Shown here: positions 26,810-33,138 of the stretch, piece by piece
How the letters are laid out: every line of letters begins with the position of its first letter
How positions within the stretch are numbered: the stretch's first letter is position 1
NCBI GenBank assembly: GCA_029219125.1
Contig: JAQXSU010000129.1
Span: 1-37,545 of the forward strand
Reading direction: 5' to 3'
DNA length: 37,545 nucleotides
DNA from: Bacillota bacterium
Lineage (GTDB): Bacteria; Bacillota; Clostridia; Peptostreptococcales; Anaerovoracaceae
Notes under the pieces: model-generated
What the model saw: the letters and a program-made list of their open reading frames with translations, nothing else
The model's database searches: none
Told to the model about the DNA's origin: nothing
Translations under genes and position numbers: made by a program

Positions 26810-26836
26810 TTCTGATCTCATCAGGAGGTATCAGAA
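26810..26836 (+). promoter_or_regulatory. Inverted repeat bracketing the ribosome binding site of the phage-type regulator gene
   Basis: TTCTGAT (26810-26816) and ATCAGAA (26830-26836) flank the GGAGG of the next gene. The alternative hairpin CTGAT-CTC-ATCAG (26812-26824) uses the same left arm and would leave the ribosome binding site free. The two structures are mutually exclusive and could control translation. They are short, so chance is possible. Confidence 0.35.
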
Positions 26837-27240
26837 TGAAGGACTATCAGCTAAAGTCTCTCAAGTCCTGCAAACTGCCGGAAACCGTTTATCGTCAGGC
26901 ATTATGGGCGGTGAAGGATCTTCCGCGGATGAAGGAAAAACTCATGGAACTGGAGGAGATGGCAGACTGCCTTCCGTCGGCATATGTGGATATACCGAGG
27001 AAAAGCGGCGGTACGGTCAGTGACCAGACGGCACAGCTGGCCAGCCGGATGGCGAATCTGGCGTTTCGGATTCAGATGATTGAGGGAAGCCTTCAGGCTG
27101 TCCCGGCAGTGTACCGGGATGGGATTCTGGGAAAGCTGGCATATGGCATTCCCTACAGCGACCGCTTTCATGCCAACACATGGAAGCGGTGGCAGCAGGT
27201 CTACCTGTATCAGGTGGCCATGGAGCTGCACTTGTATTGA
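26836..27240 (+). CDS. Orphan RinA/ArpU-like phage transcriptional regulator
   Basis: The 134-residue protein has AGGAGG before the ATG. It begins with a helical segment (PETVYRQALWAVKDLPRM), passes through a low-conservation SGGTVSDQTAQLASRMANL region, and ends with VYRDGILGKLAYG and HANTWKRWQQVYLYQVAMEL. This resembles the small sigma-region-4-like regulators of Clostridia prophages (RinA/ArpU-like, '...HxNTWxRWKQxFIYxVA...'), which control late or packaging genes. No other phage gene is nearby. It may be a domesticated remnant. The match is by recalled pattern only. Confidence 0.55.
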   Translation: MKDYQLKSLKSCKLPETVYRQALWAVKDLPRMKEKLMELEEMADCLPSAYVDIPRKSGGTVSDQTAQLASRMANLAFRIQMIEGSLQAVPAVYRDGILGKLAYGIPYSDRFHANTWKRWQQVYLYQVAMELHLY

Positions 27241-27255
27241 AGGAACAGTTGGGAG

Positions 27256-27300
27256 GAGCCCCATGGGGTGCGGAAGCACCCCATGGGGCTCTTTCTTTTT
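27256..27300 (+). terminator. Strong intrinsic terminator with a 16-bp perfect stem
   Basis: GAGCCCCATGGGGTGC (27256-27271) pairs perfectly with GCACCCCATGGGGCTC (27276-27291) across a GGAA tetraloop, followed by TTTCTTTTTT. Each arm contains the self-complementary CCCCATGGGG. It isolates the phage-type gene from the Tad operon. Confidence 0.95.
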
Positions 27301-27358
27301 TGTTGTATTCGCCGGGTTTCATGACAGAAACAGGGAAGCTGTAAATAAATGGACGTTT

Positions 27359-27425
27359 TGTCGTTTGCCGTCGAATACTGTCGGATGTGGGCAAAGTATG
27401 TCAGTTTATGTCGAAATATGCAATA
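27359..27425 (+). promoter_or_regulatory. Array of 10-bp-phased Spo0A-box-like repeats
   Basis: Seven units begin exactly every 10 bp: TGTCGTT (27359), CGTCGAA (27369), TGTCGGA (27379), GGGCAAA (27389), TGTCAGT (27399), TGTCGAA (27409) and a degenerate TGCAATA (27419). The unit at 27409 is a perfect Spo0A box (TGTCGAA) and two others differ by one base. Spo0A dimers bind two tandem boxes with 10-bp spacing, as at abrB. The array lies about 110-170 bp upstream of the first Tad gene, a position suited to activation or repression. That Spo0A is the binder is inference. Confidence 0.7.
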
Positions 27426-27472
27426 AAATACATGTAAATTTTTTCTAAACTGTGCTGAAAGTAACGTTTAAA

Positions 27473-27481
27473 TGTGATAAT
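27473..27481 (+). promoter_or_regulatory. Possible -10 region of the Tad operon promoter
   Basis: TG (27473-27474), T and GATAAT (27476-27481) form an extended -10 with one mismatch. No recognisable -35 lies 17 bp upstream (TGCTGA), which would fit an activator-dependent promoter. An alternative TAAAAT at 27424-27429 would put the phased boxes over the -35 region. Confidence 0.4.
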
Positions 27482-27526
27482 CTGTTAGTGTTCAGAAATG
27501 GATAAGAAAACAGGAGGTAAGCGGGA

Positions 27527-28123
27527 ATGAAAAAACGAATCGCCGGGCTGATTCTGATTGTGGCATCTCTGGGATGTCTTGGATTCTGGGAATTCTGGGG
27601 AAGGGAACATCTTTCTTATGAGAAAGTTCTGGTTTTCCGCCAGGATACCGCGAGAAACACTGCAGTAGAGGAAAGTATGCTGGAGGTTGTTTTTATGGAA
27701 GAACCACCGGACGGAGCACTGCGGGCAGAAGATGCATCGAGTCTGATGAATCTGGAAACGGTGCAGTATGTTCCGGCGGGGACACCGCTGTTTTCAGAAT
27801 TCTTTCAGGATCCGAGGTTGTCGGTGGGAGGAACCAGCGGACAGTATGTGCTTTCCATTCCCAATCAGTGGCTTCTGTCTTATCCTCAGACCCTGCGGCG
27901 GGGAGATACGGTTCGTTTCTACTGCGAAGAAGAAATCGTGCTTTCTGCTGTGGTGGCTTATGCCAGGGACAGCAGCAATCAGGAGGTGGTATCTGCAGAT
28001 GATGATCGTCTGAAGGCATCTGCACCGGTCAGTCTTGTGGAAGTCATCGTCGACGAAGAAAAAGCTCTGAAGCTGGGAAAGCTGGGAGAGGAAGGAAAGA
28101 AATTTGTCCTTCTGTACAGCTGA
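27527..28123 (+). CDS. CpaB/RcpC-like SAF-domain protein of the Tad system
   Basis: The 198-residue protein has AGGAGG before the ATG. The N-terminal membrane helix is at about 4-22. A divergent SAF-like beta-clip follows (VQYVPAGTPLFSEFF, YVLSIPNQWLLSYPQTLRRGDTVRFY). CpaB proteins sit at the cell surface of Tad pilus machines; in diderms they work with the secretin, and in Gram-positives they may span the wall. It is assigned by its position first in a Tad operon plus the SAF pattern. Sequence similarity is modest. Confidence 0.7.
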   Translation: MKKRIAGLILIVASLGCLGFWEFWGREHLSYEKVLVFRQDTARNTAVEESMLEVVFMEEPPDGALRAEDASSLMNLETVQYVPAGTPLFSEFFQDPRLSVGGTSGQYVLSIPNQWLLSYPQTLRRGDTVRFYCEEEIVLSAVVAYARDSSNQEVVSADDDRLKASAPVSLVEVIVDEEKALKLGKLGEEGKKFVLLYS

Positions 28124-28175: not shown

Positions 28176-28958
28176 ATGAAGAAATGTGTGGTATTTTATG
28201 GCGGTGACAGTCAGACGGGGACTACCATGATTGCAGTCTCCGCTGCAGAACTTCTGGCAGGTGCCGGGAAACGGATCCTGCTGATCGGAGCATCCTCCCA
28301 TCCCCTGGATCCATGGCTGCCCCAATCTGCGGAAGCATCTCTGGACGATCTTAACCTGGCATTAAAAGCAGGAACACTGTCGGCAGCGGAAATACGTCAG
28401 ACAGTGATGACAGTACGGGGTGTGGATATTTTGCCGGGTATGCGGAGAGGAAGCAGAGACGGCTTTGGGCATGAGGAAATGAAATCGATCTGCGGCCTGA
28501 TATGGGAAGACTATGACTGGATCCTGGTAGACGGAGGGTGCGAACCGGCGTGCGGTCTGACGATGGCTGCGCTGCAATGCGGACAGAAGGCGGTTCTGGT
28601 GCTTACCCAGCAGGAGAAATGCCTTCTGCGGTTTGAGGCAAAAATCAGTGCTCTGGAACGGGCACTTCCGCCGGAGCAGCTGTATGTGGTGAATAAATTC
28701 AATGCTTCCGGGGCATTTTACACAGAAAAAGAAATGGCAGGAAGAATTGGCTGCAGACCGGATGCAGTGAAAACCATTGCTTATGTACCTTTTGGCTGGC
28801 AGGCGGAAATGGACCGGCTTCCTCTTCTGAACCACCGGAAATTCAGAAGAGATATGGAAAAGATCACTGATTGGATCGAGGAGGATGAAGAATTTGATGA
28901 CAGGCGGACAGGAAGAACGATACGAAGGGTTTTATCAGCTTTGCCGCATGGCAGATAA
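28176..28958 (+). CDS. TadZ/CpaE-like MinD-family protein with altered P-loop
   Basis: The protein is 260 residues. Its fold pattern is SIMIBI/MinD-like: VVFYGGDSQTGTTM at the P-loop position, ILLIGASSHP for the switch I strand, DWILVDGG for Walker B, and LVLTQQEKCLLR. The canonical deviant Walker A KGGxGKT is replaced by GGDSQTGTT, losing both signature lysines, so ATP binding is doubtful. TadZ proteins localise the Tad machine to a cell pole. It has no N-terminal receiver domain, unlike many CpaE/TadZ. It overlaps the CpaF gene. Confidence 0.8.
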   Translation: MKKCVVFYGGDSQTGTTMIAVSAAELLAGAGKRILLIGASSHPLDPWLPQSAEASLDDLNLALKAGTLSAAEIRQTVMTVRGVDILPGMRRGSRDGFGHEEMKSICGLIWEDYDWILVDGGCEPACGLTMAALQCGQKAVLVLTQQEKCLLRFEAKISALERALPPEQLYVVNKFNASGAFYTEKEMAGRIGCRPDAVKTIAYVPFGWQAEMDRLPLLNHRKFRRDMEKITDWIEEDEEFDDRRTGRTIRRVLSALPHGR

Positions 28959-30303
28959 CCTGTTTGAAGAAGACTGGAGGGATACAGATGAGCTGGCCAA
29001 GGCCAGGAAACTGGAGAAAGAAAAACGAGCGATTATGGGATATGAGAAGGAGCGGATGTTTTTCCAGTCCCGGATTGGAGATATGATACGGGAAAGAGGC
29101 TGGCACACAGAGGTCCCGCCGTGGTATGGCAGTCTGGAAGAGGGGATTTTTCATGAAGTATACGGTCTGGCCGGGCTGGCACCCTGGGCATATGACCGAA
29201 CAGAGGAGTATCGGAAGTCATCCTCTGCGAAGCTGATCGGCGACAGGCTCTACTGCCTGATTGACGGAGTTTCTCAGCTGCAGCCTCAGCGCATTCCTGC
29301 AGAGCGTAGGGAGCAGCTAAAGCGTGCATTGCTGCTGGCCACACCCCGGGAACGGCTGGAGGAAGGCTTTCACGAGGTATATCTGCATAATGGGATACGA
29401 ATCACAATTTATTCCGGAGAACGCACGAAAAATGGGCAGGATGTCATGGTATTCCGAAAGTATATCATGGAAGAACTGTCCTTTGAGGAACTGGCAGCTC
29501 TGGGAACGATTCCTGCAGAAGCCATCCCCCTGTTTCGATCTATGATCCGTGTCGGTTTCAATATCCTCATCACCGGACCCGTCCGCTCCGGGAAAACCAC
29601 TTTCCTGCAGGTCTGGCAGAAGCAGGAGGACCCGACGCTGGAGGGACTTGCTGTTTCCACTGATCCGGAAACTCCCTGGCATGACCTGATGCCGCAGGCT
29701 CCCGTCATGCAGCTGGTGGCTGACGGAAAAGAACTGGAGGTTATTTTTAAATCTCTGCTGCGGGGTGATAATGACTACATTCTGCTGGAGGAAATGCGGG
29801 ATGCAGCCGCTTACCGTCTGGCTCTGGAAATCACATCCACCGGCACCATGCGGTGCAAGGCTACCATTCACAGCAGCGGAGCGGTGCAGATTCCGTATAA
29901 GATGGCATCTGCCATATGTGAAACATACGGCGGAAATCTCCAGAATCTGGTGGCACGGGTATTTCAGAATTTTCATCTGGTGTTTCTTTTTCGACAACTC
30001 CCCGGAGACCGGTCACAGAAACGGCTGGCAGAAATCAGTGCATATCGGTACGATGAGGAAGCGGACCAGGTGTCTGTCCATGTGCTCTGCCGTTACATAC
30101 CCGCTGAAGACAGGTGGCACTGGAAAGCCGGCCTGCCATGGCATTCCCTTTATGACGGAGGAATGGACCGGTGGGAGGAAAAGGAGTGGGAGAACATGGA
30201 GAACATCCTGAAAAAACTGGAGCAGCGCAATCCGTTGATGGAAAAGACAACCATTTATCCGCGGTATTACCGGCCGACAGAACGAAGGGAGATACCGGAA
30301 TGA
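28897..30303 (+). CDS. cpaF: CpaF/TadA secretion ATPase of the Tad system
   Basis: The ATG at 28897 has GGAGG 12 nt upstream; the ATG at 28885 touches that site and cannot use it, and the TTG at 28894 is possible. It gives about 468 residues. The C-terminal half is the type II/IV secretion ATPase: Walker A ITGPVRSGKTTF (near residue 225) and Walker B region DYILLEEMRD, followed by TIHSSGAVQIP. The N-terminal region with coiled-coil character (ELAKARKLEKEKRAI) resembles TadA/CpaF. It powers assembly of the Flp pilus-like fibre. The A-box is intact, unlike TadZ. It overlaps TadZ by 62 nt and TadB by 4 nt. Confidence 0.92.
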   Translation: MTGGQEERYEGFYQLCRMADNLFEEDWRDTDELAKARKLEKEKRAIMGYEKERMFFQSRIGDMIRERGWHTEVPPWYGSLEEGIFHEVYGLAGLAPWAYDRTEEYRKSSSAKLIGDRLYCLIDGVSQLQPQRIPAERREQLKRALLLATPRERLEEGFHEVYLHNGIRITIYSGERTKNGQDVMVFRKYIMEELSFEELAALGTIPAEAIPLFRSMIRVGFNILITGPVRSGKTTFLQVWQKQEDPTLEGLAVSTDPETPWHDLMPQAPVMQLVADGKELEVIFKSLLRGDNDYILLEEMRDAAAYRLALEITSTGTMRCKATIHSSGAVQIPYKMASAICETYGGNLQNLVARVFQNFHLVFLFRQLPGDRSQKRLAEISAYRYDEEADQVSVHVLCRYIPAEDRWHWKAGLPWHSLYDGGMDRWEEKEWENMENILKKLEQRNPLMEKTTIYPRYYRPTERREIPE

Positions 30304-31271
30304 AAAAAGGAATGACAGAGGGAATTCTGCTGATTCTGCTGACAGCAGGACTGGTGACAGCGGTTTTGCCGGAACTGGAGGATCTGTACCGGATGGTCAT
30401 GCACAGGATCACGCTGTGGGGGCGCAGTTTTCACAACGAAGATGACTGGCTGTCTATTCGAAGAGAACAGTATGGAAATCGTTTGCCGGAGCATGTGCGA
30501 AGAATGCTGCAGATGACCCTTTCCCTGGGGACCAGACGCAGCGTTCGGGCATTTTTCCTGCTGTCAGGCGGTATGGCGGTTCTGCTGCTGCTTCTTGCTG
30601 CACGCTGGGTTTCCTTCCTGCTGGCCATGACAGCAGCTATCTGCAGCGGTTCTCTTCCGTATCTGCTGCTGCGGTGTATGGTGCAGGAGCGCAGGGTGGC
30701 CAGTTCTATGGAAGGAGAGGTTCTGGTCACGGAGATTCTGAATCATTATAAGATCCATTACTGCAACATGCAGGAAGCCATCGAGACGGCGGCATTACAT
30801 ATGGAAGATGCGCCTCACAGCAGGCAGCTCCTTCTGAACCTTTCAAGAGGTCTGCAGAAGGCATCTACAGCAGCGGAAATGAAGGGACTGATGGAGGACT
30901 TCCGCTTTTCCATAGGAACGTCCTGGGCGTCGATTCTGACAGAAGATATGTACCTTGCATGTTCATCAGGGCTTCGGGTTACAGATTCGCTCAGCGACCT
31001 GGCTGCATCCATGCGTGAAGCCAGAAAACTGGAGGAATTAAACCGCAGGGAGAATAATGAAGCCCGTCTGATCCTGAAATATCTGGTTCCTGCAGGCAGT
31101 CTGCTGATGACAGTTGGAGGAGTCCGCTTCTTTGGGCTTTCCATGGAAGAATTTCTCAGGTACCAGTTCAGAACCGGACCGGGAATCACATGGTTCCTGC
31201 TGACCTTCGTGACGTATCTTGCGGCCATCTTTGTCCATCTGCTGCTTTCCAGAAGAAAGTTTGATCTTTAA
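30300..31271 (+). CDS. tadB: TadB-like inner-membrane platform protein
   Basis: The ATG at 30300 overlaps the CpaF stop (ATGA); a longer in-frame start at 30171 would lie inside CpaF and is rejected. The product is 323 residues. Membrane segments lie near 8-22, 85-120 and two at the C-terminus (about 255-275 and 290-315). The cytoplasmic helical region (EARKLEELNRRENNEARLILKYL) fits a T2SSF/TadB platform protein. It couples the CpaF motor to the growing fibre. Recognition rests on topology and position more than on strong motifs. Confidence 0.72.
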   Translation: MKKGMTEGILLILLTAGLVTAVLPELEDLYRMVMHRITLWGRSFHNEDDWLSIRREQYGNRLPEHVRRMLQMTLSLGTRRSVRAFFLLSGGMAVLLLLLAARWVSFLLAMTAAICSGSLPYLLLRCMVQERRVASSMEGEVLVTEILNHYKIHYCNMQEAIETAALHMEDAPHSRQLLLNLSRGLQKASTAAEMKGLMEDFRFSIGTSWASILTEDMYLACSSGLRVTDSLSDLAASMREARKLEELNRRENNEARLILKYLVPAGSLLMTVGGVRFFGLSMEEFLRYQFRTGPGITWFLLTFVTYLAAIFVHLLLSRRKFDL

Positions 31272-31299: not shown

Positions 31300-31971
31300 A
31301 TGAGGGAAGCTGTGTTTCCTGCATTCTGTCTGCTGCTGTACGGTACGGGAGGACTGAGCTTTTTTATGGGCAGGACAAGTGAGCCGGCTGATCGGAGCAC
31401 TCTGGCGGGATGGATCAGAATGCTGGGCAGAAGAATGAAAGAAAATCTCTCTCTCTGGCCGTCAGCTGCTGCGGCGCTGGAAAAACGACACCGGCAGACG
31501 CAGGGGAAAAAACTGGAGCCGGAAATCTACAACAGCGGTCTGCTTCTGAAAAATCTGGCCCTGACAAGAAAGGAGGCAGCGTTTTCCGCGGACTATCTCT
31601 ATGAAAAGCTGATGGAACATTCCGAAAAGCTCCGCCCTGTTTATGCGGAAATGCTGTCTTTATACCGGGCCGGAAAGGATCGGGATGCCTTTCGGCTGGT
31701 GGCAGAGCGCTGCCCCACCAGGGCGGGAAGAAATTTCAGCCTGGTTCTGGAAAAGGTGGGTACAATCCGACCCGACGAACTGGTGGATCAGATGGAGGTG
31801 TTTCAGGAGATGATACGGCAGCAGAAAATGACAGAAGATATCCGAAGGGTACAGAGAAACAGTCTGATCACCACGGTCATGGCCACTGCAGCGGTATTTC
31901 TGCTGGTCATAGACTTCGCTGTTGTGGTGGTATTCATGCATACCATGACAATACTTGAATTTGTGTTTTGA
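31300..31971 (+). CDS. tadC: TadC-like inner-membrane platform protein
   Basis: The protein is 223 residues with AAAGGAGG before the ATG. There is a short hydrophobic N-terminus (to about 25), a long helical cytoplasmic stretch and a final membrane segment (about 190-217). It occupies the usual TadC position right after TadB. It is shorter than typical TadC (about 280-320), suggesting a reduced platform. Assignment is by context and topology. Confidence 0.65.
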   Translation: MREAVFPAFCLLLYGTGGLSFFMGRTSEPADRSTLAGWIRMLGRRMKENLSLWPSAAAALEKRHRQTQGKKLEPEIYNSGLLLKNLALTRKEAAFSADYLYEKLMEHSEKLRPVYAEMLSLYRAGKDRDAFRLVAERCPTRAGRNFSLVLEKVGTIRPDELVDQMEVFQEMIRQQKMTEDIRRVQRNSLITTVMATAAVFLLVIDFAVVVVFMHTMTILEFVF

Positions 31972-31987: not shown

Positions 31988-32164
31988 ATGAAAAACCTGA
32001 TCATTATTATCGGAACGATTATACTGGGTGCAATCATCGTAAATACGCTGGTGCTGGGAGACGGAAACTCCCTGAAAACGGCTGCTTCTGATATCATGAG
32101 CCGGGGAACGGCAGCCATTTCAGAAAATCTGACCTTTGGCGGAGCGGCACAGGGAGGCGAGTAG
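31988..32164 (+). CDS. Flp-like small pilin, paralog 1
   Basis: The 58-residue protein starts at ATG 31988 (the earlier in-frame ATG at 31955 overlaps TadC and lacks a ribosome binding site). It is MKNLIIIIG, a hydrophobic helix to about residue 25, then GDGNSLKTAASDI and a short hydrophilic tail. It is in the Flp pilin position after TadC. There is no classical type IVb prepilin leader (no charged leader ending G, then E at +5), so a processing peptidase may not be needed. It shares MKNLII...LGA.I...GDG..SLK with the next gene, so the two are duplicates. Confidence 0.7.
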   Translation: MKNLIIIIGTIILGAIIVNTLVLGDGNSLKTAASDIMSRGTAAISENLTFGGAAQGGE

Positions 32165-32165
32165 A

Positions 32166-32324
32166 ATGAAGAATCTGATTATCGTACTGGGGCTGATGCT
32201 GCTTGGCGCTGTCATCTTTCAGATGATGGTCGGTGACGGACCGGATTCACTGAAAAGTACAGTGGCCATGGTAATGCGTCATCAGATCAGTCAGTATGCC
32301 GGTCAGGAGGTGGGTACCCTGTGA
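32166..32324 (+). CDS. Flp-like small pilin, paralog 2
   Basis: The 52-residue protein has a start ATG two nt after the previous stop codon and a ribosome binding site (GGGAGG) inside the previous gene's end. It reads MKNLIIVLG, membrane helix, GDGPDSLKSTVAM. It aligns with its neighbour over the N-terminal 35 residues. It overlaps the next gene by 4 nt (GTGA). Too short for a standard gene caller to favour, but supported by conservation with the upstream paralog. Confidence 0.68.
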   Translation: MKNLIIVLGLMLLGAVIFQMMVGDGPDSLKSTVAMVMRHQISQYAGQEVGTL

Positions 32325-32758
32325 AAGATCTGATTACAGCGGTGGCTTCTCTGATGCTGCTTCTGCTTTTCGTCCTTCAGTTTGCCGGCAATCAGAACCT
32401 GCATACCCGGATGTTCCGGGCAGATATGGCCATCGAAAACTTCCGGGATGCTGCCGGACTGCAGGGATACATCAGCGATGAGAACCGAAGTCTGCTGTCG
32501 GAAAGCCTTGCAGGGATCTGCGGCTGCAGTCCGGAGGAGATTCTGGTTGAAGCAGAAGACAGCAGGCAGCCGAAGCCGGAAGGCACGCTGCTTCATTACC
32601 GGGTCGGATATCCGCTGAAGGATCTGGTGGCTGCCGCTGCCATGCTGGGCATTTTACCGGAGGAAAACCGTGTCTGGATGGAGGACGAAGGATGGGTAGT
32701 AAGCCGGTTTTACATCTCGGAAAAACCGTCGGTGTCTGAAGAGGAAAATGCAGAATGA
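32321..32758 (+). CDS. Tad-operon single-pass membrane protein (TadE-like pseudopilin candidate)
   Basis: The 145-residue protein starts at a GTG overlapping the previous stop, and GGAGG lies upstream. It begins MKDLITAVASLMLLLLFVLQF, a single membrane helix, then a soluble domain containing RADMAIENFRDA and a paired-cysteine CGCS. A TadE/TadF-type minor pilin or pseudopilin is likely from its place and N-terminal helix, although the usual GxxxxE motif of TadE is absent. It shares the MK(N/D)LI start with its three neighbours. Confidence 0.6.
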   Translation: MKDLITAVASLMLLLLFVLQFAGNQNLHTRMFRADMAIENFRDAAGLQGYISDENRSLLSESLAGICGCSPEEILVEAEDSRQPKPEGTLLHYRVGYPLKDLVAAAAMLGILPEENRVWMEDEGWVVSRFYISEKPSVSEEENAE

Positions 32759-33138
32759 AGAATCTGATCCTGACCATGGGAATCCTGCTGCTCATGATTA
32801 CGGGCATGATATATGACCAGGACTGCAGAAACCTTATAGACACAGAACGGCGGCTGAGATGGGTATGTGAAGAGGCTGCTTACGGAGCCGCCGTAAAGCT
32901 GTGGCGGGAAGGAAAGAGCATGCAGGAGGCAGAAGCTGCGGCAGATGAGATTTTGCAGAGAAATCTGGATCCGGTCCAATGGGAGATGGAAATGAAGGAC
33001 GGCGTTGTGGAAATTCGGGCGGATCTGGGAGAAGCAGATTTCCATCTGCCTTTTCTGCAGGGGCTGGTTCGGGCAGAACGAAAGGAATCATTTGATTTTT
33101 ATGAAAAATTTTTTGGGAAAAGGGCTGAAACATCTTGA
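32755..33138 (+). CDS. Tad-operon single-pass membrane protein (TadF/G-like candidate)
   Basis: The 127-residue protein overlaps the previous stop (ATGA). It begins MKNLILTMGILLLMITGMIYD, one membrane helix, then a mixed alpha/beta domain of about 100 residues (ERRLRWVCEEAAYGAAVKLWREGK). It is the last gene of the Tad operon, and the purB promoter overlaps its end. A minor-pilin role is inferred from operon position and the shared N-terminal motif. I do not recognise its family. Confidence 0.58.
   Translation: MKNLILTMGILLLMITGMIYDQDCRNLIDTERRLRWVCEEAAYGAAVKLWREGKSMQEAEAAADEILQRNLDPVQWEMEMKDGVVEIRADLGEADFHLPFLQGLVRAERKESFDFYEKFFGKRAETS

Follow-up and report, generated by a model that had tools for sequence, protein, structure and literature searches.

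Phased arrays of predicted Spo0A boxes upstream of a Tad-like pilus operon and of cpaF in a group of Clostridia

Tandem 0A boxes at a spacing of 10 bp are an established arrangement, and the abrB and spoIIG promoters of Bacillus subtilis carry 0A boxes with a TGTCGAA core, the upstream box lying next to the -35 element. At B. subtilis sinI, an activating 0A box is centred at -46 (PMC11264516, accessible portion). Spo0A of C. difficile recognizes the same TGTCGAA core, in which G2, C4 and G5 matter for binding and represent the contacted bases; there is a box about 75 bp upstream of C. difficile spo0A, and others have been described at sigH, lplA and ssuA (PMC3485338, accessible portion). Autoregulation of Spo0A is likewise on record (PMC12090719, PMC3485338), and a modelling study inferred higher-order cooperativity of 0A~P (PMC12090719), as far as the accessible portions of these sources go. 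In the accessible portions of open-licence papers, we found none joining Spo0A to Tad pili or cpaF and no description of 0A-box arrays as long as those presented below. What appears new here is the proposed Spo0A-Tad pilus link and the array length, whereas Spo0A boxes, their 10-bp tandem spacing and autoregulation are known.

The window analysed in this work is a stretch of 37,545 nucleotides, contig JAQXSU010000129.1 of a member of the Anaerovoracaceae (assembly GCA_029219125.1). It contains the following repeat.

27359..27415, plus strand: phased array of six TGTCGAA-like 0A boxes (predicted), start-to-start distance 10 bp
27359, plus strand: unit 1, TGTCGTT, 5/7 matches to TGTCGAA
27369, plus strand: unit 2, CGTCGAA, 6/7
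27379, plus strand: unit 3, TGTCGGA, 6/7
27389, plus strand: unit 4, GGGCAAA, 4/7, weak
27399, plus strand: unit 5, TGTCAGT, 4/7, weak
27409..27415, plus strand: unit 6, the perfect box, TGTCGAA, 7/7, 46 bp upstream of the start of the -35 element
27419..27425, plus strand: position of unit 7, 3/7, degenerate here, at -36

The original prediction had placed seven units at 10-bp intervals from 27359 to 27419, one perfect and two with a single mismatch, at the spacing of tandem 0A boxes. Six of these units stand, head to tail (27359 to 27409), including the perfect one at 27409 and the single-mismatch ones at 27369 and 27379, and period 10 proved to be the best in the window as well as in the family; the seventh, at 27419, is no box in this genome. 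G2, C4 and G5 are all retained in units 1, 2, 3 and 6; units 4 and 5 retain G2 and C4 without G5, and position 7 retains G2 only. In a scan of the window, the seven-unit score was 35/49. The minus strand gave no more than 24 at period 10, and no period between 7 and 15 other than 10 exceeded 31. The best six-unit sum, 32, was attained in none of 300 dinucleotide-preserving shuffles of the whole window (shuffle maximum 28), and the observed six-unit sum in none of 5000 such shuffles of the intergenic stretch 27241-27526. Tandem Repeats Finder made no call at 27359-27425, so the array is no plain satellite. Clearly, it is an actual phased repeat, beyond chance.

By comparing the upstream regions of orthologous operons in relatives, we located the promoter that the array precedes.

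27252..27295, plus strand: terminator-like hairpin after the upstream gene, separating that gene from the array and promoter
27455..27460, plus strand: -35 element CTGAAA, a poor match to TTGACA, conserved inside and outside the genus
27475..27483, plus strand: extended -10 element, TGA followed by TAATCT, after a 17-bp spacer; TGNTATNAT or TGNTAATNT in most relatives

The conserved pair in these regions consists of CTGAAA, 17 bp and an extended -10 element (TGN followed by TATNAT or TAATNT). This comparison is the sole basis for the assignment; a scan of 27200-27700 for the sigma-70 consensus found no promoter. A promoter abutting the array (TAAAAT at 27424), considered by eye, was set aside, since conservation falls on the CTGAAA/-10 pair farther downstream. 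The pair is also present in four relatives without boxes (L006, L007, L009 and L015). Even in these four, the bases following the -35 element (AGTAACGTTT in several relatives) are unusually conserved; this stretch between -35 and -10 may be a site for another factor, beyond plain spacer.

The genes downstream are as follows.

27527..28123, plus strand: CpaB/RcpC-like first gene, 198 aa, with one N-terminal helix (predicted fold)
28176..28958, plus strand: BcsQ/MinD-like ATPase, candidate CpaE/TadZ (weak match only)
28885..30303, plus strand: divergent T2SSE ATPase, TadA/CpaF-like (PF00437)
30171..31271, plus strand: ORF in place of a Tad membrane component (no family match)
31300..31971, plus strand: ORF, candidate membrane component (no family match)
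31988-32164 and 32166-32324, plus strand: two small ORFs encoding 58 and 52 residues and occupying the place of Flp-type pilins (no family match)
32321..33138, plus strand: two ORFs, 145 and 127 aa long, that may encode pseudopilins (no family match)

The first gene product has no match in Pfam or NCBIfam. Its predicted structure (pLDDT 86.6) finds RcpC (9gzr) as the best fold match in the PDB, with a Foldseek E value of 2.2e-8 and a TM-score of about 0.3; the low TM-score perhaps reflects a different domain arrangement or an imperfect model. The ATPase encoded at 28885..30303 scores 45 bits against PF00437, over the cut-off, and only 35.8 bits against TIGR03819. Candidates for the Flp pilin, TadB/TadC and TadE fit in ORF order and size, with no convincing family match at E values up to 5, so that 'Tad-like, divergent' is a fair name. 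The array had been described as lying upstream of a Tad operon, and the RcpC/CpaB-type predicted fold of the first gene together with the divergent TadA-type ATPase of the third supports a Tad-like identity.

Conservation of the array was followed in a genus set of five genomes (L002, the source of the window, and L003, L004, L005 and L010) and in relatives outside it. Presence of the array in close relatives carrying the same operon, on which the original prediction could have failed, was found in 5/5 members of the genus, but genus g69 showed no box with at least 6/7 matches upstream of the window-type operon in 4/4 genomes. All five genus members share a box phase of 6 (mod 10) with respect to the -35 element, and each has a box at -46 (7, 7, 6, 6 and 7 of 7 matches). 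The -36 position, occupied by the degenerate unit 7 in the window, holds a perfect box (7/7) in L004 and L012, and in L003 one with 5/7 matches. L004 carries an unbroken run of five units, at -36 to -76, and L005 and L010 carry two strong boxes each; just two strong boxes are left at the window-type operon in G106 and G180. Outside the genus set, two boxes occur in genus g86 in L012 (-36/-46) and in L016 (-37/-47), with no box of at least 6/7 in L018 (L126) of the same genus, and two metagenome loci (L119 and L121) carry a box at -47 or -46. In genus g69, which has Spo0A, the three loci checked for the promoter (L006, L007 and L009) all have it. Separately, in G028 a second four-unit array (contig C41, L103:2251-2287) precedes a 146-aa ORF in front of a Tad-like operon; this ORF occupies the position of the 134-aa gene at 26836-27240 of the window, at whose copy no such array was seen.

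Whether the genome encodes Spo0A bears directly on the regulator proposed for these boxes, and it does. Its one protein with a Spo0A_C domain (PF08769) is a full-length Spo0A of 285 aa with receiver and Spo0A_C domains (152 bits; assembly 86% complete). Residues 170-284 align end to end with the DNA-binding half of B. subtilis Spo0A (structure 1LQ1), and the recognition helix of the latter, SRVERAIRHAIE-AW-RG, is nearly unchanged. The genus looks spore-forming, since SpoIVA scores over its cut-off in 4/5 members, the fifth having it split across two contigs. SigF scored below its cut-off. Matches to SpoIIE in the genus (L178-L183) cover only the C-terminal part, in frames of about 250 aa, though SpoIVA is intact, so SpoIIE looks truncated in these apparent spore formers. 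In the window's own genome (G000), a five-unit phased array (C122:7011-7057, L063:2512-2558) lies on the opposite strand about 180 bp upstream of spoIIAA in spoIIAA-spoIIAB-sigF, and a further two boxes lie at a distance of about 80 bp. spoIIA did not serve as a conserved positive control: no array scoring at least 4 was found there in the other four genus members.

The same genome contains a canonical TadA/CpaF on contig C153, with 288 bits against TIGR03819 (curated cut-off 373) and 170 bits against PF00437. This cpaF is preceded by a nine-unit array (C153:3565-3651). Among the other four genus members, the orthologous gene follows 9, 8 and 8 units in three and two box pairs in G028. The last box at these genes starts 16 bp upstream of TTGCAA or TTGCAT, again in phase 6. 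When all heptamers were scored at period 10 without a preset motif, TGTCGAA ranked first of 16,384 in both promoter sets, with scores of 56 (mean 16, sd 6) and 81 (mean 18, sd 8); periods other than 10 reached half the score or less. We propose from these promoter sequences that the canonical Tad operon may be under the same Spo0A control as the window operon.

Based on matches at E <= 1e-60, cpaF is present in 181/197 genomes of the family. After noticing that several exact box pairs lie near cpaF, we sampled 130 cpaF loci, 30 from a search and 100 picked by hand down the list with some rows omitted; 127 were used, three with less than 300 bp upstream (L186, L219 and L164) being dropped, and up to 1.5 kb upstream was examined. 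Genomes, mostly incomplete metagenome assemblies, were classed as having full Spo0A (a match at E <= 1e-40) or as divergent (weaker matches only, including G035 with a 264-aa frame at E 7e-35). Pairs or arrays at period 10 with a score of 5 or more were found upstream of cpaF in 25/54 genomes with full Spo0A, 2/32 with divergent proteins only and 0/41 with none. Fisher's test for full against none gave 3.6e-8, a value to be read with the counts not independent of phylogeny: Spo0A presence follows phylogeny, and the 54 genomes are therefore not 54 independent events. Counted by genus, the figures were 14/25 against 0/28 (p 1.9e-6). All 27 pairs or arrays lie on the operon strand; five other periods gave two such scores altogether, both in genomes without Spo0A.

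The distance to the promoter is equally regular. Among offsets of 8 to 25, 26/27 cases have a TTG starting precisely 16 bp from the last box start, and the lone other has it at 17. The full architecture, TGTCGAA-N3-TGTCGAA-N9-TTGnnn with a -10 box after 17-18 bp, is present in 32/54 full, 3/32 divergent and 0/41 Spo0A-less genomes, counts that allow slightly weaker boxes than the pair count, and the reversed motif gave 0 in every class. Under the same rule, 22/54 genomes with full Spo0A are without the architecture at cpaF. The motif spans 16 genera. Many family members without full Spo0A (e.g. G004, G016, G102 and G142) encode Spo0A_C proteins that stand alone or are divergent, often in frames of about 115-190 aa.

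Relative to this family layout, the window promoter is without the proximal boxes at -16 and -26; its boxes start at -46 and farther up, two to three helical turns farther upstream with the phase unchanged. With +1 assumed 7 nt after the -10 element, the two boxes of the family are centred near -48 and -58, and the nearest strong box of the window near -78, on the same helix face. Though laid out differently, the window promoter may work like the proximal-box class.

Phased boxes also occur elsewhere in the genomes. With up to one mismatch, TGTCGAA-N3-TGTCGAA pairs occur 88 times in the five genus genomes and the reversed pattern 7 times. Allowing up to three mismatches, the whole-genome count is 172 for the motif and 271 for the reversed pattern; enrichment is confined to 0-1 mismatch. 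Among the 150 matches listed for exact TGTCGAA pairs in the 197 family genomes (7-33 bp from start to start), 45 have period 10, and the next most frequent spacing accounts for 12. By comparison of coordinates, an exact pair lies just upstream of spo0A in at least five family genomes (G110, G120, G071, G153 and G008). Pair matches of the window's own genome within long ORFs (L065, L070 and L071) were treated as chance. In the same genome, a nine-unit phased array (C103:698-784, L066) is directly upstream of a PC4-domain gene (855-1316), and a four-unit array (C155, L064:2857-3034) adjoins a terminator-like hairpin, after which comes a group II intron carrying a reverse transcriptase. Exact box pairs within 33 bp are numerous in G045 (at least 25) and G187 (at least 12); no Spo0A match was obtained in G187, whose assembly, however, is just 78% complete and whose genus relatives have Spo0A.

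With the same boxes at a fixed promoter distance before Tad genes in many relatives, the pili are probably under the sporulation switch. Our main reading, to which we assign a probability of roughly 0.8 on sequence comparisons, is that Spo0A~P binds the boxes and activates Tad pilus promoters across the family, and that the genus expanded two boxes into arrays of 6-9. The array would then be a head-to-tail set of Spo0A binding sites, with Spo0A~P dimers occupying neighbouring boxes on one DNA face, and bound Spo0A~P would turn on a weak sigma-A promoter (CTGAAA-N17-extended -10) and with it the Tad-like pilus operon. The basic unit of the family would be two boxes, the last starting 16 bp upstream of the -35 hexamer, a distance at which a bound dimer is expected to adjoin sigma region 4. 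The genus would have extended this unit to 8-9 units at cpaF, and along such arrays Spo0A~P may spread cooperatively. The sequences themselves establish the boxes, their phase, their conservation and their association with Spo0A; that Spo0A~P occupies them, that it activates and does not repress, and that it binds cooperatively are the parts of this reading that we infer.

Repression is its main rival: Spo0A may bind the array and shut the Tad-like operon down, so that pili are off once cells commit to sporulation. Spo0A is known to act both ways depending on box position, with the -46 box activating and downstream weak boxes repressing at sinI (PMC11264516, accessible portion), and the window array does contain graded weak boxes. 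However, all boxes lie upstream of the -35 element, none overlapping it, at the window promoter and at 26/27 cpaF promoters, and the -35 elements (CTGAAA, TTGTAA and TTGCAA) are poor, as expected for activator-dependent promoters; activation by contact with RNA polymerase is therefore favoured, and we consider repression unlikely. That another DNA-binding protein with a similar site, such as a stand-alone Spo0A_C-like protein, uses the boxes appears quite improbable. Such proteins exist in family members lacking full Spo0A, and 3/32 divergent-only genomes have the cpaF architecture; yet the only Spo0A_C protein of the window's own genome, in an 86% complete assembly, is the full-length Spo0A, and the architecture tracks full-length Spo0A (32/54 against 3/32 and 0/41). 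A 10-bp periodicity arising by chance or mutation, through curvature or slippage and with no regulator, could account for imperfect units, and A/T tracts at this period can bend DNA, but it would not put TGTCGAA at the top of 16,384 heptamers with other periods at half the score or less, keep the promoter phase across species, or repeat the motif at a second Tad promoter and in 16 genera. This explanation is in effect refuted.

If activation by Spo0A~P is correct, a surface pilus is predicted to be a direct target of the sporulation master regulator in at least 14 genera with full-length Spo0A, which would explain when largely uncultured gut Clostridia make Tad pili. The promoters of 2 to 9 units would also form a natural series for studying how Spo0A concentration is read by cooperative arrays. 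More tentatively, and with somewhat less than an even chance in our judgement, Tad pili could be a core ancestral branch of the Spo0A regulon reached through the two-box promoter, with the arrays acting as cooperative chains that set a sharp threshold for two Tad systems; pilus attachment or DNA uptake would then be set against sporulation at both systems together.

The promoters described here resemble B. subtilis abrB, spoIIG and sinI in the TGTCGAA core and in an upstream box adjoining the -35 element, and the last box of the family, centred near -48, is close to the -46 of sinI (PMC11264516, accessible portion). They differ from the B. subtilis boxes in that the targets are Tad pilus operons, the boxes are all head-to-tail in the sense of the operon, the units in this genus number 6-9 in phase, and the window boxes begin farther upstream. 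As in C. difficile, boxes are found upstream of spo0A, here as exact pairs in the family genomes mentioned above; unlike here, no Tad pilus target is among the C. difficile boxes described at spo0A, sigH, lplA and ssuA in the accessible portion of PMC3485338. A further likeness is to Caulobacter CtrA at the Tad pilin gene pilA (PMC11264516, accessible portion), where, as proposed here for Spo0A, Tad pilus expression is controlled from several sites by a response regulator of cell fate; regulator, DNA site, phylum and pilin promoter are all unrelated.
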